Positions 33,987 to 64,000 of a DNA stretch of 64,000 nucleotides are shown here, in pieces. The DNA is from Pseudomonas defluvii (GTDB taxonomy: Bacteria > Pseudomonadota > Gammaproteobacteria > Pseudomonadales > Pseudomonadaceae): contig NZ_MBPN01000001.1 of assembly GCF_001695625.1 (NCBI RefSeq), positions 1 through 64,000 of the forward strand. Reading direction: 5' to 3'. The notes below the pieces were generated by a model. It was not told where the DNA came from, ran no database searches, and saw only the letters and a list, made by a program, of their open reading frames with translations. How positions within the stretch are numbered: the first letter of the stretch is position 1; the number at the start of each line of letters is the position of its first letter. Position numbers and translations under genes: made by a program.

Positions 33987-35003
33987 TCAAAGCTCGTTGA
34001 TCCTGCCCCGGCGGTCTGTAAACTCACGAACCTCTTCGCGTGACACCTTATTGGCTGTTACCCATGCCATGGCGGTTTCCGCCATGTTCCGCCGCCCCTG
34101 GCGCTTCATCTCGTTCGCCAGCATAGGCAGCTTCTCCGGACCACCCTGCAGGATCTGACGGACAGCCCCAGTCACCTCGATCGACTCATAGATGGGGAGT
34201 GGAGCACGCTGCCCGTCCGAGAAGCGCAACATGTGCTGCCAGAAGATTCCGCGCAGTGTCTGTGGGACAAGTCTTTCATACCGGGGATCAACCAGCGCCA
34301 GCATCCGGGTGTACGCATCGGGTGCGCTATCAGCGTGAATAGTCGCGAAAACCGAGTGACCGGTCGATGCAGCTAGCAGGGCGGCATTGGCCGTTTCAGG
34401 ATCTCGAATCTCGCTGACCATGATGGTTTTTCGGTTCTGTCGGACACAGTCCCGGATGGCCTGCTCAAAGCTTTCTACGTGCTCTCCGACTTCACGCTGA
34501 ATGACGCCACCGCCTTCGAAGATGTACTCGATGGGGTCCTCGCAGGTACCGAGCAACCCTCTTTCGAGGGGGTCCATATTCTCCAGCGCTGAGAACATGG
34601 TTGTGGATTTACCCGAACCCATTACGCCTGCGAATAGCGTCAAGCCCGCACCTTTCATGAGGGACTTAACGACGTTGTAATCGAGCTTCAGGTCCTTTTG
34701 GAAATTCAGCTTGCCCTGGAGTAGGCGGCGCATCGCGATTACCCAACCATCCATTGAGTTGGCCAGGTTGCAGCGGTAACGGTAACCATTAAAGGGGATC
34801 GTGAAGTCAGCAGATTTGCGCTTATTCCCCTTCCCTTTTTCCGCTAGCATTTTTTCATAGAAATCCTTCCAGATCGGCAGGATCTCCGGACTATGGACCT
34901 GGCCAAAGTTGTCGACCATCTCCATGGTGCGCTCGCTGAGTGTGATGTTCGTCGCTTCCTTGGCAAACGCTTCGGCGTCGAACTCCTTGGGTTTAAGCAG
35001 CAT
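33987..35003 (-). CDS. PilT-like type IV pilus retraction ATPase
   Basis: 338 residues from the ATG at 35003 (MLLKPKEFDAEAF) with GGAG 5 bases before. Secretion-ATPase motifs: FAGVMGSGKSTTM (Walker A), CEDPIEYIFEGGGVIQREVG (Asp box), KTIMVSEIRDPETANAALLAA (Walker B), and TGHSVFATIHADSA (His box). The AIRAGLRQDP-type region reads AIRDCVRQNRKT. It groups with PilT/PilU and the plasmid TraJ/DotB-type ATPases and should power pilus retraction or transfer. It is the last gene of the operon, only 8 bases after a radical SAM gene, which ties the maturase cluster to the pilus. Confidence 0.88.
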   Translation of the reverse strand: MLLKPKEFDAEAFAKEATNITLSERTMEMVDNFGQVHSPEILPIWKDFYEKMLAEKGKGNKRKSADFTIPFNGYRYRCNLANSMDGWVIAMRRLLQGKLNFQKDLKLDYNVVKSLMKGAGLTLFAGVMGSGKSTTMFSALENMDPLERGLLGTCEDPIEYIFEGGGVIQREVGEHVESFEQAIRDCVRQNRKTIMVSEIRDPETANAALLAASTGHSVFATIHADSAPDAYTRMLALVDPRYERLVPQTLRGIFWQHMLRFSDGQRAPLPIYESIEVTGAVRQILQGGPEKLPMLANEMKRQGRRNMAETAMAWVTANKVSREEVREFTDRRGRINEL

Positions 35004-35011
35004 GGAATCTC

Positions 35012-36172
35012 CTAATACAGCGTGACGGGACCGCTCAACAGCGGCTCGATACCGTTGCGAGCAATAGCGTGCGCAACGAAGCGCTTCGCACCGAAGCATT
35101 CATCGTTGGGCTTATTGGGTTTGGCGAACTCCAACAGACATGCGTTCCGGAACTCGCAGTGCCGGCATTCGGGATTGTTGTTCCGCGTGCTCTGTCGCCG
35201 CATGTACAAGATCCTCTCCCGAGAGCAGAGGATGTCTCGGAACGTTGTTTCCGGCTCCAGAATGTTGCCGAAGGAGTGCATGTACTCCTTCCACCCATCC
35301 CGATAGTTGGGCAGTACAAACTTTCCATCAGGGAGTAGAAACAGGGTCTGCCCTGCCATGTTGCTAAGGTCGCCGCCGGCGGCGCGATCGACTGCAAAAT
35401 GAGCCTCACCAATGCTTGGCATCTTCAGCCCCTGGACCTTGCCCCTGTACCAGTGGTTGAGCATCTCGATCATGAAGTCGTTGAAGGCAGTCATGGTTGG
35501 GGCGAAGCGATCGTATTGGCCCGGCCTGTCGTTCTGCTCGTTCAGCATGAAGGGCAACCAACCAGTCTCCTCGACTCCAAGTTCAGCAAGCAGATCCAGT
35601 GTCCGGGATGCGCCTTGTTCCAGCAGGGCAGAGTTGACCACGCTGATCGTGGCCACTTTCAAGCCGCGGCCGACTGCTTCACGTACCTTGGCCTCCCACT
35701 TACGCACGTAGTTGCTGGAGCGCATGTCTCCGTCGTAGGAGGTCTGAACATAGCCATTACAATGCTCATGCCAGATTGGCGCCCAAACATCGAGGTCTAC
35801 ACCAAGCATCGAGGTGAGCATCACATGCCGTACTTCATAGCCGGCCGATGCCGGCAGCTCCTCATCCATGATTCTTGAGTAGGCGAGAAAGTATTCAGGG
35901 CCCGCCGCGGTGGGCTCACCGCCGTAGTTGTAGGCGATGATCGTCCTGCGGGGCGGCTGCTGCTCCTCGAAGTAGGTGTGAATCTTCCTGCAAACCATCC
36001 TGAAGTCGTCGAGCGACATCAGAGTCTTGTCGCTGCGCTGTTCCTTGCTCAGGTAGCAGTGCTTGCAGTTGTAAGGGCAGTACAACGACGGCATCAAGGT
36101 GAAAACGAAATACCCGTTCTCAATTGTGTCCGTGAGGCCTTCAAATGGCTCACTTTGGGTTACGGGCAGCAC
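35012..36172 (-). CDS. Radical SAM protein with SPASM-like C-terminus (1 of 10)
   Basis: 386 residues. The SAM-binding [4Fe-4S] motif is CPYNCKHC (C32, C36, C39), followed by a GGEP motif (YNYGGEPTAAG) that contacts SAM. The C-terminus holds CRHCEFRNAC (C336, C339, C345) and C359, an auxiliary-cluster site in the SPASM style but with Leu after the third Cys instead of the usual GGC. SPASM proteins mature peptides by forming C-C, C-S or other bonds. The start lies within the 3' end of the 105-aa gene. It precedes the PilT-like gene. Confidence 0.88.
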   Translation of the reverse strand: MLPVTQSEPFEGLTDTIENGYFVFTLMPSLYCPYNCKHCYLSKEQRSDKTLMSLDDFRMVCRKIHTYFEEQQPPRRTIIAYNYGGEPTAAGPEYFLAYSRIMDEELPASAGYEVRHVMLTSMLGVDLDVWAPIWHEHCNGYVQTSYDGDMRSSNYVRKWEAKVREAVGRGLKVATISVVNSALLEQGASRTLDLLAELGVEETGWLPFMLNEQNDRPGQYDRFAPTMTAFNDFMIEMLNHWYRGKVQGLKMPSIGEAHFAVDRAAGGDLSNMAGQTLFLLPDGKFVLPNYRDGWKEYMHSFGNILEPETTFRDILCSRERILYMRRQSTRNNNPECRHCEFRNACLLEFAKPNKPNDECFGAKRFVAHAIARNGIEPLLSGPVTLY

Positions 36173-36467: not shown

Positions 36468-36469
36468 GG

Positions 36470-37717
36470 TCAGCCCACCGCAATGAGGTTCTGAGGCAGT
36501 TGGTTTGCGCCCTGCAATACGGACTTCGGTCGCACTCCCTCTTCCTCTACCAGGAAGCGAACCCTCTTGATGAAGGTCTTGAAGCCCGGGCACTCGTCCT
36601 GCTGATTCCACTGCTCGTGAAGAACGCCGCAGTTGGCCTGGCAAAGCATCCTCTCATCGCAAGCCCGGCAGGCAGCGGGAAGTCGCCTAGCATTGGCCAC
36701 TTCTTTCAGGTAGCTCGGCGAGGTGAGGACGTCATGAATGGTATTGACGAATTCCACGGCCTTGGAACCGTCACCTTGAATCACCTCGCGCGTTTCAAAG
36801 ATGTTCCCATGGCTGGTGTAGTCGTTCGTACCGCCTTTCTCGATGCAGCTGATAGTCCGTCCATCGGAGTCGATATCAAGCGCACCATGGACAATCGGGC
36901 AAACCACGTCATCTAAGCTCTCGCCGCAGTAGACAGCCTCCAACCAGGACTCACATGGGTTGATCCAGAGGTCGGTTATGGTTTCGCGATGCTTTAGGTA
37001 CCAGTCAAGCGCCTCGATATAGAACTGAGCGGTCTCACGGTGCTTTGGTTGGATGAGCTTCGCATTGAGGTCGCCGTCACCTGACGGGATGAAGAACCCG
37101 AAGTGCATCTTGGTGAACCCAAGGTCGACCAGCTCCTCGATCATCGAAGCTGCTCCGGCTTGAACGACCGGCCGTACAAGTGCCGTGGTGACAGAGAAAT
37201 CTTTCGGCCCCGAAACCCCCGGCATCTTGGATTCCGCCATCAGGGTAACCACGTTGCGCCGCCAGATTTCTTCCTGCTTACGCTTGTTGAATCTCGTTGA
37301 CCGTTCGTAGCTGGTGGACACTTTATCGAACAGACGGGCCACCTCAAGGGCTTCTTGAGTCACCAAGTTGGTGACAATGGAAAAGTCGACTGCCTGGGGG
37401 ATGCCTCGCAGCAGAGCCTTGGCTTTCGGGAGCGCGGATTCGAAGAACCGAACCCCTAGCATTGAAGGCTCCCCGCCAATCACATGGATGTCCACGTGGT
37501 TGTAGCGCTGGGAGAAGTTGTGATCGGCTTGCATGTGCTCGACGATCCCCCTCACAACATGCAGGAATTCTTCTTCCGTCATGTCGGGGCTCTTGTCCTT
37601 TTTGTCCGAAAGGATGTAGCAGTGGGAGCAGCGAAGCTGGCAACGTCGAGTCACGTTTATCTGAAATAGAAAACTGTTTCGCCCGGTCGCCCCGGACGAT
37701 GAAATGCCTGGCTGCAT
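36470..37717 (-). CDS. Radical SAM/SPASM protein (2 of 10) with LIAVG tail
   Basis: 415 residues from the ATG at 37717 in a TAATG overlap, with GAGG 8 bases before. Radical SAM motif CQLRCSHC (C26, C30, C33), GGEPSMLG at the SAM site, SPASM C350-x2-C353-x5-C359-x3-C363 and C376. The protein ends QNLIAVG, a tail shared with the 414-aa unknown protein (SGLIAVG) and nearly with the radical SAM at 51768 (GLIAIAG). Probably a peptide or protein maturase. Confidence 0.9.
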   Translation of the reverse strand: MQPGISSSGATGRNSFLFQINVTRRCQLRCSHCYILSDKKDKSPDMTEEEFLHVVRGIVEHMQADHNFSQRYNHVDIHVIGGEPSMLGVRFFESALPKAKALLRGIPQAVDFSIVTNLVTQEALEVARLFDKVSTSYERSTRFNKRKQEEIWRRNVVTLMAESKMPGVSGPKDFSVTTALVRPVVQAGAASMIEELVDLGFTKMHFGFFIPSGDGDLNAKLIQPKHRETAQFYIEALDWYLKHRETITDLWINPCESWLEAVYCGESLDDVVCPIVHGALDIDSDGRTISCIEKGGTNDYTSHGNIFETREVIQGDGSKAVEFVNTIHDVLTSPSYLKEVANARRLPAACRACDERMLCQANCGVLHEQWNQQDECPGFKTFIKRVRFLVEEEGVRPKSVLQGANQLPQNLIAVG

Positions 37718-38478
37718 TAGGTAATCCTCAGGGCGAGCGCTGTCCGTAGATCGTTGTGGCGGCCCTTCTCGGAAACGTCTGTAACGCTGACTCGAGCCTG
37801 CCCAACTCTTGAACAAGTTGATGCTTCTGGATGTAAAAATCGGGATGGGTGTGAGGTAAGGACCACTAGCCCAGTGCTTACGAATTCAAGCTCCCGATGA
37901 TTGAACTGAATCGAGGGCAACCGAGCGGTGATGACCTTCCAGAATGGGTGAAGACCGGCCTGCTGCCTGATCTCGGGTCTCAAAGGAAAGAGCAGATGCT
38001 TCCCTGGGGCACCGCGGCAGAACCCACGGTCACTCTGCAGCGCTGTGTCCTTGATAATTGAGACTCTACCCGTCTGCTTGCAGCCCTCACAGAGCGCGCC
38101 GATTGCTGATGCAATGCTTCCGACCTCGAAGCCCTTGCCGAAGCGTGATCCGAGTACCTCCGCCATTTCATCAGTCCAGGTGCTGAAGATGGCCAGGTTG
38201 TTTGCTGAGTAGTGAGGATTAGGCCACGATTCGATATCGAGATTATCGGGGCTTATCAGCACCTCAAAACCGCATTCGGCCAGATGTAATGCCAGGGCTA
38301 GGCTGACCAGAACATCGTTCCCGACCACCAGGACCTCTGGGTGCAATGAGCCGTAGATGCCATCGAAACAGGCATCAATTACTCGCAGCAATCTCCCGCG
38401 CCAACTCAACTCCACAGGCGAAGTGATCAGGGCATCGTGGAATCTGAAACGGCGGAGTGATAGCTGATTTCTGCTCAT
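37717..38478 (-). CDS. Unknown protein with possible Rossmann-like segment (253 aa)
   Basis: 253 residues, ATGA overlap with the oxygenase gene before it and TAATG with the radical SAM gene after it. VLVVGNDVLVSLALALHLAECGFEVLIS near residues 49-76 looks like the first strand-turn-helix-strand of a nucleotide-binding fold, though the glycine pattern (GNDVLV) is not a standard GxGxxG. A few Cys occur (CEGCKQTG, GFCRG). Possibly a degenerate flavin- or NAD-dependent enzyme or a scaffold; function not recognised. Confidence 0.65.
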   Translation of the reverse strand: MSRNQLSLRRFRFHDALITSPVELSWRGRLLRVIDACFDGIYGSLHPEVLVVGNDVLVSLALALHLAECGFEVLISPDNLDIESWPNPHYSANNLAIFSTWTDEMAEVLGSRFGKGFEVGSIASAIGALCEGCKQTGRVSIIKDTALQSDRGFCRGAPGKHLLFPLRPEIRQQAGLHPFWKVITARLPSIQFNHRELEFVSTGLVVLTSHPSRFLHPEASTCSRVGQARVSVTDVSEKGRHNDLRTALALRIT

Positions 38479-39123: not shown

Positions 39124-40305
39124 CTATGCAGAGGCCAGACTTGCCTTGAATAGGCCGTCTAGCTTGTGGTTGTGATGTCGGGTTTCGATGCGGTGGAGCC
39201 AGCCTCTAACCTCCTCCAGTCCGTGTTCCTGAATGCCGGCATCGATGCGTCTGAAAAGCGCCTTCCAACTCGCACAGTGCGCAGAGCGGCCATACATGCC
39301 GTTCCCTTGTTGGATCGATTCGAACATGCAGCCGCCCTGGCACTCCTTAACAAATGGGCAGGCCTGGCAGTCGGCAGAGAGCCGCCCTGAACGGGCCGCC
39401 AGAGCTTCTAACAGTCCCGTATCGATCACACCGTCCAATGCATTGCCCACCCGAGATAACCCCGCGTCCGCCATTTCTTGGCACACGTGTAGGTCGCCAT
39501 TCGGCTCCAAGCTGAGAGACCGCTGAGTGCAGTCCGCCTGGAATGCGCAGGCATGTGGCATCTGGTAGTTACCACCGGCTAAGGACGCCACGCGCGCGGT
39601 GGTGAGGTGGAAAAAGGGCTCCACGATAATCGGGTAGCGCATAAACCAGTCGTCGAAGGTCTCTAGGAGTGCCTTCATCGTCCGTTCTGCCCCTTGAAGG
39701 GCTTGGCCAGGCGTTCCTCCCTGAAACAGCGGACGAAGTGTCAGCATGCGGCCTTCTCGTGCGGCGAGCCGAGTCTGTTGCCTAGCAGAGTTCAAGCCTG
39801 ACTGATCCAGGACGAAGACCGCGCCCGGGGTGCTCCGCTGGTTTCGAAGGTAATGGTCTGCCTCTTTCCAGATCAGCCGGTAGTTGTCCGCCGAGCCTTT
39901 CACTGTGCGCGCCTGGCTGAAATCGTCAACCGAGGTGCCAAGGCGGCCTTCGAACAGGTCGTATAGTCGACTAACTTTCTCCGGAGTGCCGATCAGGTTG
40001 CTCTGGGCACCATCCTGCATCTCTATTCCGTGTTGGGCGCACGCTTTCCGCAAATACCGAACGCACTCCTTCAACTCTTGGTAAGGAACGGTGAGGATTT
40101 CGCCTCCTATGTACTGGGCCGATAGGAACGTCGGCGCAGCCCCGATCTGGGGGAGTGCTCGGTTGAGGATGAAGTCAATTGACTTCATGAAAGCGGCAGG
40201 CGACATCCGCGACGAGGCATTCTCCATCCAGCTGCTGCAGTAGCTGCAGTCCGCGTTACATGACTTCGTCATCCGGATGTGCAAGGTGAAGGGCTGATGA
40301 ATCAT
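39124..40305 (-). CDS. Radical SAM/SPASM protein (3 of 10)
   Basis: 393 residues from the ATG at 40305, overlapping the preceding stop (ATGA). Radical SAM motif CNADCSYC (C16, C20, C23). A typical full SPASM domain follows: CQACPFVKECQGGC (C313, C316, C322, C326) and C344. It closely resembles the radical SAM at 54025 in motif spacing (CNADCTYC; CKTCPHFTECEGGC), so the two are likely paralogues at the two ends of the cluster. Confidence 0.9.
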   Translation of the reverse strand: MIHQPFTLHIRMTKSCNADCSYCSSWMENASSRMSPAAFMKSIDFILNRALPQIGAAPTFLSAQYIGGEILTVPYQELKECVRYLRKACAQHGIEMQDGAQSNLIGTPEKVSRLYDLFEGRLGTSVDDFSQARTVKGSADNYRLIWKEADHYLRNQRSTPGAVFVLDQSGLNSARQQTRLAAREGRMLTLRPLFQGGTPGQALQGAERTMKALLETFDDWFMRYPIIVEPFFHLTTARVASLAGGNYQMPHACAFQADCTQRSLSLEPNGDLHVCQEMADAGLSRVGNALDGVIDTGLLEALAARSGRLSADCQACPFVKECQGGCMFESIQQGNGMYGRSAHCASWKALFRRIDAGIQEHGLEEVRGWLHRIETRHHNHKLDGLFKASLASA

Positions 40306-41945
40306 GCGGCGAGCTCCATGGCAGCCATTGCCTCCCGGCACATGAGCACCACTTCATCGAGATGCGCGCCCCCCAACAGCGCCCGAACTGGGTTCCCTGC
40401 GGCCAGGTCAGCGATGATATTTTCAACCAGGTGCGCGAGTTTCCATTGCTGCCGGTACCGGATTTCGCTGATCACGCGCACTGGATCGAAAGTCAGGTAC
40501 TGGTAATTGCCAAACAGGATGTGACGGAAAAGCTCCTCACCACCCTCCTCTGCAGCGTCTGCATACCAATTTTTCGGCGTGTCGATCTGCGCGCCGATCG
40601 CATCATAGAAGAACAAGCGTTCGGCCCAAGACTTCCCGAACAGGGCGCCTGGCATCATTTCTACGAGCCGGGGTCGGTCGAACTCATTGAAGAAGCTGTC
40701 GTAGGCGCCGGCGAAAGAATCCTCGATCAGGGGGACTTCCCGGCCGCGCTCAATGTTCGCGGTTGCAACCCGGAGCCGAAGCGCCCCTTCCCGCTTCCTG
40801 GCTTCCATCACTGCCAGGTACTTGGAGCGGTCGGTTTCAGCGCCAGCATTGGCCTTGGCCTGCAGCCATACCCGCTTTAGGCCAGGACAGTCTCCGTCGG
40901 CGATGATGCTGCGCAGGTTATGGTGAAGGTTCTTGTGCCACGCCCATCCACCGGAGCACACGACGGCAAACTCACAAGTGCCACACTCCTCGTAGGGCAT
41001 GCTGTGGCGCACCAGCATCTCTGGGGCATTGTTGAAGATTGCCTTTTCCGCGAACCGCAGGTCCTGCACTGAGAGTGGTTCAGTTGGCTGTATCGCCTCG
41101 TCACCGGTGTAGCTGGAGTTGAAGGTCACCTCGCCGTTCTGTTCTACCTCGAGGTCGTAGCTGTCATTACCCGGGTAGTGGAAATGGGTCGCGGTAACAG
41201 ACGCCGTCTCCATTTCCACCAACGGGCTGATGGTCACCCCGTCGGGCACCAACTCGCTCAGAGCAAGGATGTAGTCGGACACTTCGCCGTAGGTACAAGT
41301 CTTGTGAAAGTAACTCTTGCCGCTGCCTGCCGGGTAGAGCATGTCGCAGGTGATATCGGTGATTCCGCGGCTGACGAACTCTTCGACGATGAACTTAGGC
41401 CCGCGCTCAATTACGGCCTTGCTCATGGTGATGCAGAGGGTTTTGCGCTTGATGCCGGTGATGGCCTCTAGCGTTCTGAAGTATCTGGGGAGAAGCTTGT
41501 CGTCCTTCAGGAACCGATTGGTGTCAGGTTCCCATGGTACAAACACATCCAACCCGTAGCCATATCGGTGGCCCATCTCGTTGAGAAGGCTGATGTACCC
41601 TGGGTCCTTGAAAATCAGGTTGGTACACCAAATGAGGGCGGCCTCGGCGTTGTAGTCGCGCTCCCATCCGGCCATGACCTCCAGGGTCCAGGGCAGATTT
41701 CTTTCCCAGTAGGCCAGCGGCATCATAGTCAGCTCGCCGCCGAGCAATTCGATGTTGATCTTGGTGACTTTCCGGTCTGCCTTGAACAGAGCTTCGATGC
41801 TATCGAAGGTCTTCCGGTAGAGGCCCTCGTCCATCATGGCCTTATCCCGGAGCAGCTCTGGCTTCACGTAGCAGTGGGTACAGCCGAGGTTGCAGAGGCG
41901 AGTTGGTGCAATACAGACGTTGAGCATGTCCAGGGCGTTATGCAC
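40302..41945 (-). CDS. Radical SAM protein with SPASM variant and C-terminal extension (4 of 10)
   Basis: 547 residues if begun at the GTG at 41945, which overlaps the preceding stop (GTGCATAA) and has GGAGAGG upstream; an ATG at 41927 is the alternative. Radical SAM motif CNLGCTHC (C18, C22, C25), LLGGELTMMP at the SAM site. The SPASM-like segment is CGTCEFAVVCSGGW (from C321): the usual fourth Cys is Trp. A ~150-residue C-terminal extension (LFFYDAIGAQI, ILFGNYQYLTFDP) is shared with the proteins at 45396 and 47278. Confidence 0.88.
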   Translation of the reverse strand: MHNALDMLNVCIAPTRLCNLGCTHCYVKPELLRDKAMMDEGLYRKTFDSIEALFKADRKVTKINIELLGGELTMMPLAYWERNLPWTLEVMAGWERDYNAEAALIWCTNLIFKDPGYISLLNEMGHRYGYGLDVFVPWEPDTNRFLKDDKLLPRYFRTLEAITGIKRKTLCITMSKAVIERGPKFIVEEFVSRGITDITCDMLYPAGSGKSYFHKTCTYGEVSDYILALSELVPDGVTISPLVEMETASVTATHFHYPGNDSYDLEVEQNGEVTFNSSYTGDEAIQPTEPLSVQDLRFAEKAIFNNAPEMLVRHSMPYEECGTCEFAVVCSGGWAWHKNLHHNLRSIIADGDCPGLKRVWLQAKANAGAETDRSKYLAVMEARKREGALRLRVATANIERGREVPLIEDSFAGAYDSFFNEFDRPRLVEMMPGALFGKSWAERLFFYDAIGAQIDTPKNWYADAAEEGGEELFRHILFGNYQYLTFDPVRVISEIRYRQQWKLAHLVENIIADLAAGNPVRALLGGAHLDEVVLMCREAMAAMELAA

Positions 41946-50059: not shown

Positions 50060-50099
50060 CACTCCCCCTATCCCCCATCCCATTGAGATGAGGGACCGA

Positions 50100-56748: not shown

Positions 56749-57908
56749 CGCATGGCCGACGCGAGGTTAATGATGGGCAGATAAAAGCCGATCGCGAACA
56801 TCATGATGGTCAGGAGCATCATCGAAAAACCGATGACCGATGACATCTGGGCCACCTTCTCCGAATGCCGAAGGTAGTAGGCCTTTAGAGCATCAGCCAT
56901 ATTGCTCAGCACGTTGTCGCGCCCAGCTGGTGACTGGTTGTCGAAACCCTGGAGGTTCTGAGTAATCAGAGGGGGCCACTCGGGGTTGTCGAAGACGTCG
57001 GATAGCTCTCGACCCTCGACCAGGCGTGCGTGCGCTTCTTGATAGAGAGCATGTGCACGGCCTCGGGAACGTTGCATCATGAACTTGAAACTTTGGGGGT
57101 TGGTGAAGCCGCTGCTGAGCAGTAGCTGGTACGTCTGAACAAACTCCAGGCCCATCCTCACCTTGTTCCTTTCATTCAGGAACGAGAAGCCAGGCAGGTT
57201 CCTCACCATTTCCCATACTCGAGCGCGGAACACGTAGATCCCGGCACCGATTCCAAGCAGGACGTAGAGGTACTCGGTGTAGACCGTGTGCAGAAGCAAG
57301 ATCAACTGGCTCAGGGAATTCAGCTGCAGGTCGAGACGCTGTACATGGATAAAGTCGTGGATAGTGCCGCCTGCCCATAGCGGAATCCCGATGATAAAGC
57401 CAAGACCAAAGCATGCGTTGATCATGGCTTTCTTCATCAGAGCAGAGAACTCTTTCTTGGCTGCCAGACGCTCTGCGATTGCTTTAGAGGCCCTATTCAG
57501 AGCATCAGGCAATCGCCCTGTCTTGTCACCGGCCTCAGCCAGGAGGACCGCGGTTTCGTCGAATCGAAGAAGCGACAGGTACTCTTTTGGGGTTTGACAG
57601 GAGTCGATTTGTGCAAATGTGATCTTCAGTGCTTTGTAGTTCACTGACTCCTGGACCGCCTTGCCGAAGGTCTTGCCTGAAGAAATCTTCGAAGCAATGG
57701 CAGACAACATAAGGACCTGCTCGACAAGGGGAAACTTCTTGTCGAACAAGGCCGATTTGATACCCCCAAGGTGGTCGACAGCAACGCTATGGATGACCGA
57801 CTCGGGGATGCCGGACATGGCAATGGCCTGCTCTTTGGTTTCCGCCTCAACACCGACGGAAACCACACCACCCGATTCACCTAGATACTTCAGTTGGTAG
57901 TAGGCCAT
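56745..57908 (-). CDS. pilR: Pilus inner-membrane platform protein (PilR/GspF/PilC-like)
   Basis: 387 residues from the ATG at 57908, with AGGG 7 bases before. GspF-type layout: two cytoplasmic helical domains and membrane helices (ACFGLGFIIGIPLWAGG; YLYVLLGIGAGIYVF; VIGFSMMLLTIMMFAIGFYLPI). The repeat signatures AEAGDKTGRLPDAL and the C-terminal counterpart around NLQGFDNQSP are visible. It anchors the assembly ATPase. The IncI thin-pilus name PilR fits the gene order. Confidence 0.88.
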   Translation of the reverse strand: MAYYQLKYLGESGGVVSVGVEAETKEQAIAMSGIPESVIHSVAVDHLGGIKSALFDKKFPLVEQVLMLSAIASKISSGKTFGKAVQESVNYKALKITFAQIDSCQTPKEYLSLLRFDETAVLLAEAGDKTGRLPDALNRASKAIAERLAAKKEFSALMKKAMINACFGLGFIIGIPLWAGGTIHDFIHVQRLDLQLNSLSQLILLLHTVYTEYLYVLLGIGAGIYVFRARVWEMVRNLPGFSFLNERNKVRMGLEFVQTYQLLLSSGFTNPQSFKFMMQRSRGRAHALYQEAHARLVEGRELSDVFDNPEWPPLITQNLQGFDNQSPAGRDNVLSNMADALKAYYLRHSEKVAQMSSVIGFSMMLLTIMMFAIGFYLPIINLASAMR

Positions 57909-57918
57909 GGCCAATCCC

Positions 57919-58380
57919 TTAGTTGCAGCGGTACGCCACGGTCACTTTGGTGTTACCGGTCGCGGTTGCAGAGTTCTTCACGATGTTGTTGCTCTGGTTC
58001 AGAGCGGATGCTAGGTCGGCAGCGGCGCTGGTGTCGGTGCTGTCGATGGTGTAGCTGATGGTCACCTGGTTGCTGGTGACAGCATCAACGGTCCAGGCTG
58101 TGTTCCAGACAGTCAGATCGGGCAGGCCGCGTTCCTTCAGCTTGGCTGCAGTGATGGTGGTCGTGCTGCAGGTGTTGGTGCGGCTCACCTGCCGGGCGAT
58201 TGCACCTGGGAAGTCTTTCTGCAGCTGAGTGATCGCAGTGCTCAGCTTGGAGTCTTCACGCGCCTTGAGCATGCCCGGCAGGAAGAAGGCAGTCAGGATT
58301 GCGATGACCCCCAGCACAATGGCCAGTTCGATCAGGGTAAAACCCTTCTGGCGATTACCTTTGGTACTACGTTCGATCAT
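57919..58380 (-). CDS. pilS: Major type IVb prepilin, copy A (PilS-like)
   Basis: 153 residues from the ATG at 58380, AGGA 7 bases upstream. Leader MIERSTKGNRQKG, cleavage before FTLIELAIVLGVIAILTAFF. Two Cys (TNTCSTT and the C-terminal YRCN) should form the pilin disulfide loop. It differs from copy B at about five residues, mostly in the leader. Lies 10 bases upstream of pilR. Confidence 0.88.
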   Translation of the reverse strand: MIERSTKGNRQKGFTLIELAIVLGVIAILTAFFLPGMLKAREDSKLSTAITQLQKDFPGAIARQVSRTNTCSTTTITAAKLKERGLPDLTVWNTAWTVDAVTSNQVTISYTIDSTDTSAAADLASALNQSNNIVKNSATATGNTKVTVAYRCN

Positions 58381-58469
58381 GGATCGTTCCTTTTGTGTGA
58401 GTTTCAAGCTTGCTGTTGTGCAACCAAGACCGCGTGCCGACTTGTCAAGCAGCAGTCAGGCTCGACTAC

Positions 58470-58931
58470 TTAGTTGCAGCGGTATGCCACTGTCACCTTG
58501 GTGTTGCCCGTCGCTGTTGCGGAGTTCTTCACGATGTTGTTGCTTTGGTTCAATGCTGTTGCGAGGTCCGCAGCAGCATTGGTGTCAGTGCTGTCGATGG
58601 TGTAGCTGATGGTCACCTGGTTGCTGGTGACAGCATCAACGGTCCAGGCTGTGTTCCAGACAGTCAAATCGGGCAGGCCGCGTTCCTTCAGCTTGGCTGC
58701 AGTGATGGTGGTCGTGCTGCAGGTGTTGGTGCGGCTCACCTGCCGGGCGATTGCACCGGGGAAGTCTTTCTGCAGCTGAGTGATCGCAGTGCTCAGCTTG
58801 GAGTCTTCACGCGCCTTGAGCATGCCCGGCAGGAAGAAGGCAGTCAGGATCGCGATGACCCCCAGCACGATGGCCAGCTCGATCAGGGTGAAGCCCTTCT
58901 GGCGAATACGCTTGGTTTTACGTTCGATCAT
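58470..58931 (-). CDS. pilS: Major type IVb prepilin, copy B (PilS-like)
   Basis: 153 residues from the ATG at 58931, AGGA 8 bases upstream. Leader MIERKTKRIRQKG, then the same FTLIE helix. The mature part differs from copy A only at two positions (Asn for Ser in DTN, Thr for Ser in LATAL). Identical Cys pattern. Follows the ATPase gene by 31 bases. Confidence 0.88.
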   Translation of the reverse strand: MIERKTKRIRQKGFTLIELAIVLGVIAILTAFFLPGMLKAREDSKLSTAITQLQKDFPGAIARQVSRTNTCSTTTITAAKLKERGLPDLTVWNTAWTVDAVTSNQVTISYTIDSTDTNAAADLATALNQSNNIVKNSATATGNTKVTVAYRCN

Positions 58932-58962
58932 TGATCTATTCCTTTCTCTGTTTTCCTGGCGG

Positions 58963-60720
58963 TTAAAGCTGTGCAACTAAGGACGAAGTGCCGGATTCGC
59001 GGACGGGGCGAAAACCCGCTTTCTCCTGACGATTCTTCGGGGCACCGACTCGGTCGGAGAGGTACGGCCGTAGCTCTTTCTCGAGCTGCTCGAACCCAAT
59101 CACACCTTCGAACACCAAGCGCAAACCATCGTCCCAGAGGTCCTTGAAGGTCCCTTCTGCGATTTGGGAGCGTCTCAGTAAGCTGGGGGAGATTCCATTC
59201 AAAATGGCCTCCTGAATTTCCGGCGTAAGCTCGAGCACCTCGATAACACCGCGCCGCCCTTTCAAGCCGCCAGATTGATGCGATCCGTTGTTACACACCT
59301 GACAACCTTTGGGGTTTGCTCGATAAAGCTTGAGTTCACCGTTGCCACCAAACACCGGGTTCGAGCCATACAAGGCGAAGCGCTTTTCATCAGATCTGAA
59401 GAGGTATTCGACTCTGCAGTTCTTGCAGAGGCTGCGTACCAGTCGCTGGGCCATGATGGCTTGCGTATTGGTAGCGATGATGTCTGTCGGAATGTCCATT
59501 CGGCCGAGGCGATCCAGCGACTCGTGGGCATTGTTTGTGTGCAAGGTGGTCAAGACCAGGTGACCAGTTTGGCCGGCTTTGAAAGCGTACTCGGCGGTTT
59601 CGTTGTCGCGGATCTCGCCAAGTAAGATCACGTCGGGGTCTTGTCGTAGCAACGCTCGGAGAGCGGTAGCAAACGACAAGTGCTTACCGCATTCGGTATG
59701 CGACATGCCCTCATGCTGGATCTCCACCGGCTCTTCGATGGTGTGGTAGTTCCGGTTCGGGTCCTGGCCATAGATGTCCAGGAGCATCGCATTGAGAGTT
59801 GTGGTCTTACCTGAGCCAGTAGGGCCTGTAACGATGATCAAGCCATTGGGGGCCTCACCCAACCGACGGAGCAGCGCCTTGTTTTCGGCTGACATGCCCA
59901 GTCTGTCCAGGTTGGCCAAACTCGTGTCGTTGCCCAATAGACGAACCACGACCTTGGGGGTACTCTCCGAGCCCTTGGTGACAGGAAGCGTGCTAACCCG
60001 CAGGTTGATTTTCTTATGGGTCGAGACCGCGAAATCAAACTTCCCATCCTGGGCTGCGTTCAGTTCCAGGGTAAGGCCGCAGTTGTTCTCGATGATCACG
60101 CGGCAAATGGCCTCGTGAATTTTGGACGTGTAGAGCTTGCGAGTCAGAAGTTCGCCGTCGATTCGCAACCGGACTTGAACCTGATCTCCTTGTGTAGGCT
60201 GAAGGTGGATATCCGAGGCGTTGAGCTTTGCCGCCTCGCGCACCAGGTCTTCCACACGCTGTGTTGCGCGGGCCTTTAGCTGCTCGCTGTCATGGACCGC
60301 GCTATCATCATCTTCAGTTTCGATGGCCTTGATCGCTTCCAAGCGGGTCAGGCTAACCACACCAACCTTTGGCTGGTGGATGCTGTGGGTCCTGGCGAAC
60401 CCTGTGGCACGCTCGTGCATCCGTTTGTGGAAAGGATTGGCCATAAAGATGGTGTTGCCGTAAATGAACCATGGCTCCCCTTCAGGGCCCTGAGTAATCG
60501 AGAGCCCTTCCTCCATCTCGAAGAACACTTCACGGCCGAGCGCCTTGCCGATCGCATGGGCAACTGCTTCGTCGTCCTTGCAGACGCGGAGGATATCGGG
60601 AACAACCTGCTCGATGACTTCGGATACTGGCTGCGTATCTGCTTGCTGTTGCGTGATTTTCCCCGCCTCAACCAGATTCCGTAGGATCTTTCGTTGAATC
60701 CCCTGGATGTTATTGCTCAT
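58963..60720 (-). CDS. pilQ: Pilus assembly ATPase (PilQ/PilB/GspE-like)
   Basis: 585 residues from the ATG at 60720. GspE-type motifs: IIVTGPTGSGKTTTLNAML (Walker A), YHTIEEPVEIQHEGMSHTE (Asp box), DPDVILLGEIRDNETAEYA (Walker B) and TGHLVLTTLHTNNA (His box). A tetracysteine zinc element is present (CKNCRVEYLF and CQVCNNGS). The N-terminal domain (about 1-120) is MshE/GspE N1-like. It powers pilus extension; the counterpart retraction ATPase is at 33987. Confidence 0.92.
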   Translation of the reverse strand: MSNNIQGIQRKILRNLVEAGKITQQQADTQPVSEVIEQVVPDILRVCKDDEAVAHAIGKALGREVFFEMEEGLSITQGPEGEPWFIYGNTIFMANPFHKRMHERATGFARTHSIHQPKVGVVSLTRLEAIKAIETEDDDSAVHDSEQLKARATQRVEDLVREAAKLNASDIHLQPTQGDQVQVRLRIDGELLTRKLYTSKIHEAICRVIIENNCGLTLELNAAQDGKFDFAVSTHKKINLRVSTLPVTKGSESTPKVVVRLLGNDTSLANLDRLGMSAENKALLRRLGEAPNGLIIVTGPTGSGKTTTLNAMLLDIYGQDPNRNYHTIEEPVEIQHEGMSHTECGKHLSFATALRALLRQDPDVILLGEIRDNETAEYAFKAGQTGHLVLTTLHTNNAHESLDRLGRMDIPTDIIATNTQAIMAQRLVRSLCKNCRVEYLFRSDEKRFALYGSNPVFGGNGELKLYRANPKGCQVCNNGSHQSGGLKGRRGVIEVLELTPEIQEAILNGISPSLLRRSQIAEGTFKDLWDDGLRLVFEGVIGFEQLEKELRPYLSDRVGAPKNRQEKAGFRPVRESGTSSLVAQL

Positions 60721-60722
60721 GG

Positions 60723-61382
60723 TCAGTCGTCCGCATAGCGTTTGGATTTGGTCCAATCGATTACCAGTTCCCGAGTGCCGTCAGGACCTTTGAAAACAGC
60801 CTTGTCGAGTCCAAATCGCTGCAGTGTGTAGTCGTTGACCTTTTCGCCATTGCGTACGATTCGGCGCCCTTGGCTGGTCATTACTACGATCGAGTCAGCC
60901 CGAACCTCGAGGAGCGCCAGAAAGTGTTTGGCCTTGTCTTCATCGTCGTCGGGGACGTTTTTCTGAGAGGAGCCAGGCTGGCCTGGACCGCCTGGACCAC
61001 CCTGGCCATTTGGTCCGCTCATCCCCAACGTAGGCTGGTCGAGCATGAACGGTGCGGCATTGGGGATGACTGGATTTTGACCGAACGGGAGGTCAGCTTT
61101 ATCGGGTTTACTGCCTGCCTTGCGCACCTCTTTACCCAAAGTTGCGATATCTGTTACACCCAATGGAGAGCCACTTTCGTCCACAATGAAGCCGGCATCC
61201 GACATTTTCTTGTAGGAGTCAGCCATTTCAGCCTGAAGTTTCAGCTGATCGCGCTTGTACTCCATGTCTCCAATCTTCCGACTGCGGTCACGATGAGTGT
61301 CTGCATCGTCCGCATCTGCAAGAGCATAGATAGGGAGCACAAATTGAGCTGCCATAAGAGTGCCGATGACAAAATTTTTCAT
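60723..61382 (-). CDS. pilP: Pilus alignment protein (PilP-like) with Gly/Pro-rich linker
   Basis: 219 residues with a signal peptide (about 1-22, ending IYALA). A helical region, a Gly/Pro linker (GPNGQGGPGGPGQPG), then a C-terminal beta domain (RADSIVVMTSQGRRIVRNGEKVNDY, TRELVID) of the PilP/GspC type that contacts the secretin. Stop lies 2 bases before the PilQ-type ATPase start. Confidence 0.75.
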   Translation of the reverse strand: MKNFVIGTLMAAQFVLPIYALADADDADTHRDRSRKIGDMEYKRDQLKLQAEMADSYKKMSDAGFIVDESGSPLGVTDIATLGKEVRKAGSKPDKADLPFGQNPVIPNAAPFMLDQPTLGMSGPNGQGGPGGPGQPGSSQKNVPDDDEDKAKHFLALLEVRADSIVVMTSQGRRIVRNGEKVNDYTLQRFGLDKAVFKGPDGTRELVIDWTKSKRYADD

Positions 61383-61384: not shown

Positions 61385-61861
61385 TCAGGTACCCACGACT
61401 ACAAAGTTAAGTTTCATCACTCCGTTCGCAATGGAGTAATCGTAGAGATATAGGGGAATCTCCTTTTGAAGCGACCGTACACTTGATATCACCACCTGCG
61501 GATCGCCTATTACTTGGCCCGGCCAGCCTTTCAGCGGGCCTGAATAAGTATTCCCCATCTCCGAAGAATTGTTCACGTCGAAGGTTTCGAACTTGAGCCC
61601 ATCGAGTTCAAATGATGCGGTAGCCTTTTTCCAAGAGCTCACGAGTTTCGGAAGCTTTTCAAGCTCTGTATACCGCTGAACGTCTTGTCTTGAGGTCTCA
61701 ATTACTGCATCGATCTGATCGAAGTCTCTAGGGAGAGTGCGGCTCTCCCCCATGGTCATGCTGAATCGAACGGCACCAACTGCCACGGCTGCAATGACAA
61801 TTAACATCAGGTTCGAAAAGCCAAAGGTTGAAATTGACAGTTTTGATCGCTTGATAATCAT
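61385..61861 (-). CDS. Small pilus inner-membrane protein
   Basis: 158 residues: an N-terminal membrane helix (NLMLIVIAAVAVGAVRF), a coiled segment and a beta-rich C-terminus ending FVVVGT. Located between the PilO-like and PilP-like genes, overlapping the former (ATGA). Probably part of the PilN/O/P-type alignment complex; not recognised by family. Confidence 0.7.
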   Translation of the reverse strand: MIIKRSKLSISTFGFSNLMLIVIAAVAVGAVRFSMTMGESRTLPRDFDQIDAVIETSRQDVQRYTELEKLPKLVSSWKKATASFELDGLKFETFDVNNSSEMGNTYSGPLKGWPGQVIGDPQVVISSVRSLQKEIPLYLYDYSIANGVMKLNFVVVGT

Positions 61862-62793
61862 TGGTTGTCGCTCCCGCCAATTTCTGAAGAGTCAATTCGA
61901 ATGACGTAATTCAGGTGGGGAGTGAACTCCGAAACTATGCCTCGGACTTTATCCGCCGGATCGAATGGCAAGTATTTGCTAGTTGCGAATCGGTGCAATG
62001 TCGTGAACCCGACATGAGTTTCACCATCAGGTGAAGTTTCAAGGTTGCTATCGTAAGCAACTAGCTCACTGATCTTGCCGAGCTCAGCAGAGTTGTCCGG
62101 CCACTTATCAAGTCGTTCACGCAGCAGTTCGCCGATCTTGCTGTCTAACTCATCTCTTTGAATTTGCTTGGTTTTATATACCGCCATGTCCGCGTTATAC
62201 AGCGTGTACATGCCGTAGTTATATACAAGTGTAGCGATCAGCATCAGGCCGCATATGCTTGCGACCATATACCAGCGCTTGGTTTGATCGTGCCTTTGCT
62301 TTTCGAATAGTTCTTGTCGGGTATATGCCGGGCTGGCGGGCAACACCAGATCAAGATTGTCAAGATTAATGCGAGACGCATTTGTGAGGTCGTAGTCCAT
62401 CCACTCAGGGATGAAATTATCTACAAACTCAGAAGAGCTCAGAATGCTCGAAGGCTTATGGAGATCCGTACTAGAGTCCAACCGCAGATAAAGCCCGCGG
62501 TCAGGTCCCATTGGGAAAATAATAACCTCGTTCCCCAAAGGAACGAGGTTGTTGGCGAACAGGAGCTGCCAGAGTCCATACACGTTAATGCCCGGGTACG
62601 ACTCCCGCATCGACTTTAGTTCATCTTCGTCGATGTAGATCGCTGGCCGGCCGTCTTCGCGTGGCCCCTCAATGATGGTATACACCTCCGACTCGCGGGA
62701 GCTGCTGAGCGCCTGCGAGCCGATGGAGTCACGGCAGATGATGACCTCTTCGCCACCAATCTGGATTGGTACGCCAAGAAGCAACTGATTCAT
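61858..62793 (-). CDS. pilO: Pilus inner-membrane protein (PilO-like, type IVb)
   Basis: 311 residues. A cytoplasmic N-terminal ~170 residues, one membrane helix (MVASICGLMLIATLVYNYGM, about 183-202), then a periplasmic coil (KTKQIQRDELDSKIGELLRERL) and a ferredoxin-like end. This bitopic shape fits the PilO protein between secretin and PilP in IncI-type pilus operons. The ATG overlaps the secretin stop region. Confidence 0.68.
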   Translation of the reverse strand: MNQLLLGVPIQIGGEEVIICRDSIGSQALSSSRESEVYTIIEGPREDGRPAIYIDEDELKSMRESYPGINVYGLWQLLFANNLVPLGNEVIIFPMGPDRGLYLRLDSSTDLHKPSSILSSSEFVDNFIPEWMDYDLTNASRINLDNLDLVLPASPAYTRQELFEKQRHDQTKRWYMVASICGLMLIATLVYNYGMYTLYNADMAVYKTKQIQRDELDSKIGELLRERLDKWPDNSAELGKISELVAYDSNLETSPDGETHVGFTTLHRFATSKYLPFDPADKVRGIVSEFTPHLNYVIRIDSSEIGGSDNQ

Positions 62794-64000
62794 TAGAGAG
62801 CACCCTCCACCAATGTGGGGGTGACCACCAGGACCAACTCACGTCTGTCGAGCTGATTGTTGATGTCCTGGGTGAGAGGGTTCAGCACTGCTTTGGTGAC
62901 CAGATTCTGCCAAGGCAAATGGCGGAGAGCTTGGTTCATCTTTTTGGTGATGAGGCCGCCGAGGTGTACTGCACGACCAGAACTGGTAATAAGCTGGGTG
63001 CTGAACTCCTTGAGATTCACACGAGGAGTTTCGAACTGGAAATCACCGATGGCGATCGTGTCGTTGCCACTCAGGTTCGATATCACCGGCCAGATATCAA
63101 CCAGGAGTTGGTCGTTATCGAGCACCCGCACAGTCACGCTAAGGGTCACGCCGACTTTCAAGCGGCCCAATTTCGGGGTAACGGTTACGTTGCCCGACTC
63201 GTCTTGGGATTGCTCGACGTCAACAATGTAGGTGAGTTCTTCGCCCGCATAGATCTGGGCTGGGACACCATTCCGGACCGTAATGTTGGGCTGGTCGTTG
63301 AGTTCAACTCGACCGAAGGTTTCCAGGAATCGGATCAGAACGTCGGCTTTGACATGCTCAGATTCGTAGGTTCCTTGGACATTCCAGAAAGGATCGGTGG
63401 TTTCAGTCTTCGTGTTGAAGAAATGAAGTCCCAGCGGATTACCGTTTACTGTGCTCTTAACAAGGAGATCCCAGTCGATCCCTTTCTGCTTGTCGTTGTT
63501 GAGGATGACGTCGTAGGCCTCAACTTGCACGTTCACAATTTTGGTGGCTTCGCCGATCGCTCGCTTCAGGAAGCGGTCGAGGATTTTCATTTTAGAGGGC
63601 TTGCCGCCGGCGGTGATAATGCCAACGGAGCGAATCCCCTCGATGTAGGGCTCAATTTCTTCGCTCGAGGTCAGGAGACCGAAATCTGCTGGCGAGGGCG
63701 CATCGAAGTTCAAACCACTCGTCATGCCGTTATTGCTGCTGCCGTTGTTGTTTCCACCAACAGCCGCACTAGATGCACCTGCAGAACCCTGTGTGCGACC
63801 ACGGCTACCTTTATCAGACTCTTTCTCGGCACCGATAATCGTCCGAGCGCCTTCCATCACTTTCAGCCATTCATCTTCCGAGAGTTGAAGGCCGATGGTT
63901 GTGCCAGTCGAGACGTTGGAATCCTGTTGGTTGTTGGAGTCGTCGTCGCCTGCTTTAGCCCCCCGAGTCTGAGTGGATGCGATGACGTTGTTGACGTTCC
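62793..64000 (-). CDS. pilN: Type IVb pilus secretin (PilN-like), 5' end outside window
   Basis: The frame stays open to base 64000, so the N-terminus is missing; about 401 residues are visible. N-terminal side is Asn/Gly/Ser rich (SSAAVGGNNNGSSNNG) after LSEDEWLKVMEGAR; an N1-type domain follows (KILDRFLKRAIGEATKIVNVQVEAYDV). The secretin C-domain is clear: LNDQPNITVRNGVPAQIYAGEEL, VGVTLSVTVRVLDNDQLLVDIWP, and RAVHLGGLI then RRELVLVVTPTLV. It forms the outer-membrane gate. The upstream pilus genes (PilL/M-type) should lie beyond the edge. Confidence 0.9.
   Translation of the reverse strand, partial: NVNNVIASTQTRGAKAGDDDSNNQQDSNVSTGTTIGLQLSEDEWLKVMEGARTIIGAEKESDKGSRGRTQGSAGASSAAVGGNNNGSSNNGMTSGLNFDAPSPADFGLLTSSEEIEPYIEGIRSVGIITAGGKPSKMKILDRFLKRAIGEATKIVNVQVEAYDVILNNDKQKGIDWDLLVKSTVNGNPLGLHFFNTKTETTDPFWNVQGTYESEHVKADVLIRFLETFGRVELNDQPNITVRNGVPAQIYAGEELTYIVDVEQSQDESGNVTVTPKLGRLKVGVTLSVTVRVLDNDQLLVDIWPVISNLSGNDTIAIGDFQFETPRVNLKEFSTQLITSSGRAVHLGGLITKKMNQALRHLPWQNLVTKAVLNPLTQDINNQLDRRELVLVVTPTLVEGAL

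Follow-up and report, generated by a model that had tools for sequence, protein, structure and literature searches.

A likely substrate for ten radical SAM enzymes encoded with pilus genes in a megaplasmid-like region of Pseudomonas

Triceptide systems place radical SAM maturases (3-CyFE enzymes such as HaaB, YxdB, YhhB, XncB and OscB) beside a precursor with aromatic-x-residue triplets. Rings between positions i and i+2, including His-Ala and Tyr-Asp rings, are reported for this class (PMC11002830). The CXXX-repeat radical SAM targets (TIGR04117) carry a cysteine at every fourth residue. Type IVb pili offer a second comparison, and CofJ is reportedly a secreted protein carried by such pili. 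TcpF and CofJ are signal-bearing proteins encoded in pilus operons, and these systems possess a large minor pilin. The PilV tip adhesins of R64 and TP114 (shufflon) are likewise large minor pilins, with an exchangeable C-terminal domain.

The window analysed here is a 64,000-nucleotide stretch of a Pseudomonas contig, and the best match of the region to IncP-2-type Pseudomonas megaplasmids reaches 99.6%. The plasmid family of the locus is known for the spread of multidrug resistance. No antibiotic-resistance genes are identifiable on pQBR57 or pQBR103. The locus is found almost unchanged on more than 100 sequenced Pseudomonas plasmids, and the same kind of locus, with its parts co-conserved, has been published for pQBR57/pQBR103 and the pBT2436-like plasmids. 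In the covered parts of these accounts, a pilus and an arylsulfatase/SAM region or “radical SAM cluster” are described with the function given as unknown; the conservation is remarked upon, no purpose is given, and neither the precursor, its tail code nor a link between pilus and peptide is named.

Like the triceptide loci, the window combines radical SAM maturases with aromatic-x-residue triplets, but it has ten enzymes per precursor, a cysteine before each triplet, tight linkage to a pilus, and no enzyme above a curated family cut-off. It shares the fourth-residue cysteines with the CXXX-repeat targets; nevertheless, the window precursor has no match to TIGR04117, and the highest score among ten precursors tested is 22 bits, where the cut-off is 50. 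A signal-bearing protein encoded alongside the pilus and a large minor pilin are shared with the TcpF/CofJ systems, in contrast to which the passenger is small, consists of repeats, is accompanied by a set of maturases and has only putative tip binding. Unlike the R64-type PilV, the window PilV has no match to Shufflon_N (PF04917), bears a different tip, and is followed by maturase genes. What is new here is a likely substrate, read from the sequence, together with its unit code; with these named, the purpose of the locus becomes testable.

Ten radical SAM genes in a minus-strand row

The sequence-only reading described ten radical SAM genes in an unbroken minus-strand row with pilus genes, and both profile and motif evidence bear this out. 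The row comprises 28 genes, all 28 on the minus strand; pilus assembly genes flank the radical SAM genes on one side and the gene of a PilT-like ATPase on the other (Table 1). From the pilus end the order is a 295-aa protein, secretin, PilO-like, 158-aa and PilP-like proteins, PilQ, two pilins, PilR, a minor pilin and PilV; then rSAM10, 9 and 8, the precursor, the 435-aa protein, rSAM7, 6 and 5, the PEP-utiliser, and rSAM4 and 3; and finally the 2OG oxygenase, the 253-aa protein, rSAM2, a small protein, rSAM1 and the PilT-like ATPase. The secretin and 295-aa genes lie at 62793-64445 and 64459-65346 in contig coordinates, so the row extends beyond the end of the window. With likely starts used, no intergenic gap exceeds 46 bases within the maturation genes, or 89 bases in the row as far as PilO, where the largest separates the two pilins. 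The TAATG overlap proposed between the stop of the PilV-like gene and the start of rSAM10 is present at 55221.

Table 1. Features of the pilus and maturation row, in window coordinates
Feature	Position	Strand	Evidence
PilT-like ATPase, likely start ~35003	33987..35099	-	T2SSE 115.6 bits
rSAM1, radical SAM/SPASM, 386 aa	35012..36172	-	profile search, motifs
Small protein, 105 aa	36150..36467	-	
rSAM2, radical SAM, 448-aa ORF; tail NLIAVG	36470..37816	-	profile search, motifs
253-aa protein; diverged counterparts in relatives	37717..38478	-	no family match
2OG-Fe(II) oxygenase, 211 aa	38475..39110	-	PF13640 32.7 bits, cut-off 27
rSAM3, radical SAM/SPASM, 405-aa ORF	39124..40341	-	profile search, motifs
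rSAM4, long radical SAM, likely start ~41945	40302..42086	-	profile search, motifs
PEPu, 1155 aa, PEP-utiliser mobile domain with conserved His	41938..45405	-	
rSAM5, long radical SAM, 611 aa	45396..47231	-	profile search, motifs
rSAM6, long radical SAM, likely start ~49002	47278..49218	-	profile search, motifs
rSAM7, radical SAM/SPASM, 362-aa ORF	48995..50083	-	profile search, motifs
435-aa ORF (414 aa from likely start); tail GLIAVG; conserved next to precursor	50100..51344	-	
Likely precursor, 124 aa: signal-like N terminus, variable middle with DST motif, C-terminal core GYCHNACHGACHGACHGSRGWR	51356..51730	-	translation
rSAM8, radical SAM, 372 aa, adjoins precursor; tail GLIAIAG	51768..52886	-	profile search
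rSAM9, radical SAM/SPASM, 384-aa ORF	52883..54037	-	profile search, motifs
rSAM10, radical SAM/SPASM, 398 aa	54025..55221	-	best NCBIfam DynA 106.9 bits, cut-off 450
PilV-like large minor pilin, 339 aa	55221..56240	-	
PilV C-terminal tip domain with KPxC...W...CxY	55224-55565	-	
Minor pilin	56221..56748	-	N_methyl 28.7 bits
PilR/GspF-like platform protein	56745..57914	-	T2SSF 53.6 bits
Major pilin copy B	57919..58407	-	95% identical to copy A
Major pilin copy A	58470..58976	-	N_methyl 29 bits
PilQ/GspE-like assembly ATPase	58963..60756	-	T2SSE 292.9 bits
PilP-like protein, name from sequence-only reading	60723..61382	-	no family match
158-aa pilus-operon protein	61385..61861	-	
PilO-like protein, name from sequence-only reading	61858..62793	-	no family match
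Secretin, MshL-like, cut at window end (to 64445 on contig)	62793..64000	-	

All ten enzymes possess intact CX3CX2C and GGE motifs and a later CxxC (C-terminal Cys cluster), the motif pattern of radical SAM/SPASM maturases, and their Radical_SAM and/or SPASM profile matches were accepted at E <= 0.01. The Pfam Radical_SAM cut-off was passed by four of the ten (rSAM2, 8, 9 and 10) and that of TIGR04085 (SPASM) by rSAM3, rSAM9 and rSAM10 only; none of the ten reached the cut-offs of Pfam SPASM, of the named NCBIfam maturase families among the matches listed (equivalog or subfamily), or of the curated 3-CyFE families. Judged by motifs and profiles, they are genuine but unnamed radical SAM members. 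The best named NCBIfam family is DynA for rSAM3, 4 and 10 and AmcB for rSAM7; DynA and AmcB are both cross-linking maturases. It is the anaerobic sulfatase maturase for rSAM1, 2, 6 and 8, a family for which we know of no ring formation. Eight of the ten enzyme classes make up one side of a branch.

A precursor family with a conserved repeat core

The 124-aa protein, the “Cys-His protein” of the sequence-only reading with its start now corrected to 51730, is likely the substrate of the radical SAM enzymes, as suggested by its sequence and setting. Its identity as a precursor and its association with maturases and pilus are well supported. The family has 130 further members, and CHG[SA]RxWR is present in 117 of 120 listed relatives, at the very C-terminal end in 115. 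Among the 302 units that precede this motif, 283 read C-H-x-A or C-Y-x-N, and so contain the aromatic-x-x core of triceptides with the H-x-A and Y-x-N spacing of radical-SAM triceptide rings; a core holds two to seven units. Across 60 unique cores, with kinship ignored, Y pairs with N and H with A (Y:N 62, Y:other 3, H:N 3, H:other 102), and the Y units precede the H units in 59. As is typical of a RiPP, the precursor gene adjoins maturase genes in the window and in relatives, the exceptions being a Vibrio megaplasmid and an orphan contig (L070).

Comparison of 15 precursor pairs reveals that core identity is 86-100% against 44-87% for the leader, while 7-12 of 22 core codons differ silently. 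The core is under strong conservation at the protein level, its codons changing synonymously. The last two unit cysteines are invariant in 49 aligned precursors, and the cysteine preceding these is retained in 48. Such constancy, together with units that read CxxxCH, close to the spacing of haem attachment, could point to a Cys/His-rich tail that binds metal or haem or serves as a redox element on the pilus, its ligands tuned by the enzymes. We consider this quite unlikely, because Tyr replaces His in many units, Cys is absent from the mussel-symbiont precursor, whose tail differs, and no cytochrome maturation family was found among the scanned cluster proteins.

The conservation of the tail also bears on whether the product is instead a free secreted RiPP, an antimicrobial or a signal, for which the pilus is merely the route across the outer membrane. 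Dynobactin's maturase is among the nearest named ones, with darobactin's lower in the list; soluble TcpF is reported to be secreted by a type IVb pilus; and in the Vibrio megaplasmid examined a trypsin-like protease gene lies close to the precursor. On the other hand, no ABC exporter or peptidase above cut-off and no recognised immunity gene was found among the scanned row proteins (all but pilin copy B); the ABC2_membrane_3 match of pilin copy A is below cut-off (17.7 against 31.6 bits). Within a given lineage the precursor tail hardly varies, a constancy that most arms-race peptides lack. A free product thus appears unlikely, though it is the alternative to which we give most weight.

The pilus, its tip and the recurrence of the gene order

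The pilus had been called type IVb. This assignment fails for the window, in which the secretin scores 61.9 bits against TIGR02520 (PilN type IVB, cut-off 287.65) and best against MshL, at 113 bits (cut-off 250.2). It stands for the FeN3W relative, with TcpQ at 56.5 bits (cut-off 27) and pilO2 as annotated, and for the Rhizobium relative, where the pilV adjoining the cluster matches Shufflon_N at 68.5 bits. The window PilV itself gives an N_methyl match only, at 20.0 bits, below the cut-off of 21.2. Its tip motif, KPxC...W...Cx[YF], is present in all ten rSAM-linked PilVs checked and in none of four orphan PilVs. The four best PDB matches of the predicted PilV model are all V. cholerae TcpB, the first with TcpF peptide; the model is poor (mean pLDDT 61) and its TM against TcpB is ~0.2, so the likeness lends weak support.

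The sequence-only reading offered two roles for the enzymes, and they fare differently. The first, in which the pilus bears or exports a heavily modified peptide, fits a repeat-tail precursor lying amid the maturases and a tip-pilin order kept across differing pili. That the enzymes act on the pilins or on PilV, with the small Cys-His protein as an accessory, is less well supported and in our view improbable. The absence of a gap between pilV and rSAM10 and the retention of the PilV tip across rSAM-linked pili speak for it, but the tandem motif is in no pilin (the minor pilin has a single C-Y-V-A), PilV is more variable than most of the ten enzymes, related tips occur without nearby maturases, and the precursor belongs to a family of many members in which the tail is strictly kept.

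The order tip pilin, rSAM10, rSAM9, rSAM8, precursor recurs in Gamma- and Alphaproteobacteria (pQBR103, pNY5709, DN1, pMPPla107, FeN3W, Rhizobium and an Oceanospirillaceae MAG), with an MSHA-like pilus as well as with type IVb pili, and is maintained where the remaining pilus parts differ. Every one of the ten enzyme queries has a match on pMPPla107, where matches to the pilus proteins are confined to both ATPases, the first 28 aa of a pilin and the last 119 aa of PilV. A six-frame reading of the window contains the tandem C[HY]x[AN] motif at a single place, and 20 base-shuffled windows contain it nowhere; this and the recurrence of the order in distant plasmids indicate that the arrangement is not chance.

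The neighbourhood comparison suggested by the sequence-only reading supports the linkage through these recurrences and qualifies it through loci that separate the parts. Two Bosea plasmids with a related pilus have no maturases within ~16 kb, yet the Bosea pilV carries the tip domain. In the one Vibrio megaplasmid examined of four with a match, ~8 kb separate the precursor from Dot/Icm-type transfer genes, while the maturases lie far from the precursor on the same plasmid. pS810b holds a maturase fragment and no pilus in the 41 kb examined, and L070, a 9-kb plasmid-like contig, an orphan precursor without maturase. The separations in Vibrio and L070 would suit a pilus and maturases that are mere neighbours on a conserved backbone, as would the long syntenies shared by IncP-2 and pQBR plasmids, which include other functions such as chemotaxis in the published comparison. 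We regard such neighbourhood without common function as very improbable, given the same order beside a different pilus type in Rhizobium and FeN3W and the pilin genes that adjoin maturases in the mussel symbiont and a Methylococcales contig.

A proposed route to the pilus tip

The reading we prefer, and to which we give about an even chance, is that the row yields a ring-bearing peptide exported by Sec and carried on a PilV-type tip, perhaps for the recognition or gripping of a mating partner. Against this reading stand the sulfatase-maturase likeness of four enzymes, the lack of any score above a 3-CyFE cut-off, the cysteine-free symbiont precursor with its different tail, and the loci in Bosea, Vibrio and L070 where the parts are separated. 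The precursor would be made in the cytosol and its C-terminal repeat cross-linked by the ten enzymes, each H-x-A or Y-x-N triplet being closed as an i/i+2 ring of the triceptide kind and several enzymes handling successive units in turn. Export by Sec is predicted, after which signal peptidase would remove the leader; the modified protein may then dock on the PilV tip domain, as TcpF does on TcpB, and extension of the pilus through the secretin would put the ring-bearing tail outside. Partner recognition or gripping is the likely benefit, since the named plasmids with the cluster are mostly megaplasmids and conjugative type IVb pili select their recipients through PilV tips.

A wider claim, which we advance tentatively and would not expect to hold in full, is that this RiPP caps the conjugative pili of megaplasmids in Alpha- and Gammaproteobacteria as a polycycle of two to seven units, Tyr-x-Asn rings first and His-x-Ala rings last, built by radical SAM enzymes, as many as ten, that are ancient and inherited together, and serving to choose or grip the recipient. 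If true, we would know of no larger radical SAM set next to a single peptide and of no earlier RiPP tied to a pilus; a bacterial surface machine would count a RiPP among its functional parts, and the way in which megaplasmids find recipients could be approached from a new side.

Within the preferred route, the 2OG oxygenase, the PEP-utiliser and the 253-aa protein may add or recycle further groups. The predicted model of the 435-aa ORF weakly resembles part of a radical SAM barrel. The PEP-utiliser contains a rhodanese-like stretch marginally below cut-off and, as judged by eye, hydrophobic segments.

Gene row, enzymes and plasmid setting

The 123-kb contig that contains the window matches IncP-2-type Pseudomonas megaplasmids. 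Positions 34000-58990 are matched by 124 of 72,556 plasmid records (at least 80% covered in 106), with the 487-kb NZ_CP061377.1 as the top record at 99.6%. The 28 genes form a single minus-strand row, in which eleven pilus genes (in order, 295-aa protein, secretin, PilO-like, 158-aa protein, PilP-like, ATPase, two pilins, platform protein, minor pilin and a PilV-like large minor pilin, here PilV) are followed by sixteen maturation genes and, last, a PilT-like ATPase gene. At most 46 bases separate neighboring maturation genes, given likely starts and stops, and the sequence bears out the TAATG stop/start overlap noted earlier at the joint between PilV and rSAM10. The tandem major pilin genes of the window are 95% identical to each other; pQBR103, pNY5709 and the Pseudomonas aeruginosa DN1 plasmid have a single one. 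An EAL-domain gene, possibly for c-di-GMP control, and a PD-(D/E)XK nuclease/UvrD helicase pair, possibly AddAB-like, adjoin the cluster here and in those three plasmids.

Coordinates of features in the window and in related sequences
Feature	Sequence	Positions	Strand
28-gene row	window contig	65346 to 33987	-
Nuclease/helicase pair	window	24847-31564	
EAL-domain gene	window	31613-32470	opposite to cluster
rSAM2 (C-terminus NLIAVG)	window	36470-37816	-
PEP-utiliser protein	window	41938-45405	-
435-aa protein (GLIAVG)	window	50100-51344	-
Precursor, 124 aa	window	51356-51730	-
rSAM8 (GLIAIAG)	window	51768-52886	-
PilV	window	55221-56240	-
Major pilins	window	57919-58407, 58470-58976	-
PilV-like pilin	L064, own genome, contig C19	1423-2346	
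PilV-like pilin	L065, own genome, contig C321	181-1077	
Orphan precursor	L070, 9-kb contig, other Pseudomonas genome	5238-5588	
Four more CX3CX2C open frames before rSAM2, outside the ten class assignments	L055, Rhizobium pRlX5	3280-8026	
PilV and precursor tails	L047, Bathymodiolus symbiont	2628 and 3919	

That the row encodes ten radical SAM proteins (rSAM1-rSAM10) is confirmed, as all contain CX3CX2C and match Radical_SAM and/or SPASM, four of them above the Pfam Radical_SAM cut-off. All ten score below the cut-offs of the named maturase families, among which the best matches are anaerobic sulfatase maturase (rSAM1, 2, 6 and 8), DynA (rSAM3, 4 and 10), AmcB (rSAM7), CbpB (rSAM9) and geopeptide maturase (rSAM5). 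The 2OG oxygenase scores above its own Pfam cut-off, and the PEP-utiliser protein, whose mobile-domain His is conserved in five sequences, has a rhodanese match slightly below cut-off. rSAM2, rSAM8 and the 435-aa protein have near-identical C-termini, which may perhaps serve to dock a common partner. Close relatives retain these tails, but in pMPPla107 neither the rSAM8 counterpart nor that of the 435-aa protein has one.

Hall et al. (2015) describe a 16-gene arylsulfatase/SAM region adjoining a 10-gene type IV pilus region in pQBR57. The function of the conserved synteny is called unclear by Cazares et al. (2020), and the role of the region yet to be determined in a 2026 pQBR paper. Listings of the open-licence PMC literature showed no publication in which a precursor peptide or a RiPP pilus is named for this plasmid group.

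The precursor and its Cys units

The 124-aa precursor, encoded between rSAM8 and the 435-aa gene, has a signal-like N terminus and the tail GYCHNACHGACHGACHGSRGWR. A profile built from five such proteins retrieved 130 relatives among 5.8 billion sequences, including entries from Agrobacterium rubi, Neorhizobium, Thalassospira, Psychromonas and P. luteola. CHG[SA]RxWR is present in 117 of the 120 relatives listed, as the extreme C terminus in 115 and with four extra residues in two. Among these 117, the N-terminal 10-mer is strongly hydrophobic in 114, an A-x-A-like site occurs in 109, and the core comprises two Cys units in 6, three in 47, four in 58, five in 3, six in 2 and seven in 1. The final unit, CHG[SA] plus RxWR, is required by the counting criterion itself; the inner units are C-H-x-A or C-Y-x-N in 283 of 302 cases. 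In 60 unique cores, 62 Y:N, 3 Y:other, 3 H:N and 102 H:other units were counted (Fisher p ~1e-38, shared descent uncorrected), and Tyr units precede His units in 59. This pairing of His with Ala and Tyr with Asn suggests that the enzymes fall into two substrate specificities.

In H-x-A and Y-x-N units the aromatic residue stands two positions before its partner. The review PMC11002830 lists radical SAM rings of the same spacing, among them the C2(His)-Cbeta(Ala) link made by HaaB and the C3(Tyr)-Cbeta(Asp) link made by YxdB, as well as rings in which XncB and OscB join Trp/Phe to Asn; by this likeness, every unit would become a single small ring.

Among six close relatives the final 22 residues are 86-100% identical, with silent codon differences at 7-12 of 22, and the first 102 residues, on the leader side, are 44-87% identical. 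The tandem motif was found in no tested row protein besides the precursor. At the precursor position the Bathymodiolus symbiont encodes a Cys-free 70-aa protein, identified by position and not by motif, that has NRREFL at its start and PHASHSSRSWR as its tail; the last residues, SRSWR, resemble those of the symbiont's PilV, GSWNR. Two family entries (P0003 and P0009), whose leaders are 100% and 98% identical to that of the window precursor, are broken copies or assembly ends that lack the tail.

Recurrence of the cluster and its exceptions

The plasmid collection holds rSAM5 in 136 records (at least 80% of its length in 132), namely 131 of Pseudomonas, 4 of Vibrio, weak among the matches listed, and 1 of Stutzerimonas. 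The precursor is found in 129 records with the window sequence as query and 134 with the rhizobial one, and the PilV tip in 130. The same neighborhood does recur: gene order is kept in pQBR103, pNY5709-IMP and the DN1 plasmid, with enzymes 49-79% and pilus proteins 34-65% identical to those of the window. In pMPPla107 (972 kb) and FeN3W (910 kb), nine enzymes each directly follow pilus genes that include a tip pilin with the same kind of C-terminal domain; the FeN3W pilus genes themselves stand after DotD/TraH- and IcmT/TraK-type transfer genes. Rhizobium leguminosarum pRlX5 has, in this order, ATPase, platform, PilT, PilV, rSAM10, rSAM9, rSAM8, precursor, 435-like and rSAM3 genes; across the record start follow more CX3CX2C open frames, rSAM2 and rSAM1 among them. 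Psychromonas has six enzymes with PilV on the opposite strand, the Bathymodiolus symbiont five, preceded by pilin and PilV and followed by PilT, and a Methylococcales contig end carries pilins, platform and rSAM8. In a 70-row enzyme tree, eight of the ten classes are each confined to one side of a branch; rSAM4 and rSAM6 depart from this because of one FeN3W row and the row for the rSAM4 of pMPPla107. Together with the recurrence across distant plasmids, the enzyme set thus looks old and co-inherited.

Maturases and pilus, whose co-occurrence the sequence-only reading put forward as a check, stand together in pQBR103, pNY5709-IMP, DN1, pMPPla107, FeN3W and Rhizobium, with exceptions in Bosea, Vibrio, pS810b and L070. 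Two Bosea plasmids with the same kind of tip have no maturase within ~16 kb, and searching the plasmid collection with the rhizobial precursor found no Bosea precursor. On one Vibrio megaplasmid the precursor is distant from several maturase genes; thioredoxin-like and trypsin-like genes are nearby, and Dot/Icm genes are ~8 kb away. pS810b carries a cluster piece without pilus or precursor in the examined stretch, with a truncated rSAM2 start and no 2OG gene. The maturase-less precursor gene of L070, which might use maturases supplied in trans, neighbors replicase, ParA-like and NikA-like genes and one for a secreted-looking 342-aa protein. Loss, splitting or borrowing in trans could account for these four exceptions, as could a looser pilus-maturase link.

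The pilus tip and proposed export

The window secretin is MSHA-like yet below every cut-off, the FeN3W pilus includes TcpQ, and the Rhizobium PilV matches Shufflon_N. All ten enzyme queries find pMPPla107 counterparts, nine of them distinct, whereas pilus matches there are limited to the pair of ATPases (27-30%), 28 aa at the start of a pilin and 119 aa at the C terminus of PilV. All ten radical SAM-linked PilVs checked carry KPxC...W...Cx[YF] near the C-terminal end; the four orphan PilVs, of which two belong to the window's own genome, lack it. The two observations indicate the tip as most likely the contact kept between pilus and maturases.

Because the N termini are signal-like, the precursor would be exported by Sec. 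The pilus step would then parallel the carriage of Vibrio cholerae TcpF, which is secreted by the toxin-coregulated pilus and whose N terminus hooks onto the minor pilin TcpB (PMC9565799). The four top PDB matches of the PilV model are all TcpB, the first with TcpF peptide (E 2.4e-4), although TM is only ~0.2 and the model is of low confidence (mean pLDDT 61). Recipient choice by conjugative pilus tips is described for the tip pilins of TP114 and for the PAPI-1 pilus with LPS. PMC8544851 reports that, in SBW25 with a host gene disrupted, tra and pil genes fall together for pQBR57 and rise for pQBR103; a figure legend there lists the SAM region among marked regions. The PilV-like pilins on C19 and C321 share the stalk of the window PilV and have different C-terminal domains, and so may perhaps be alternative tips.
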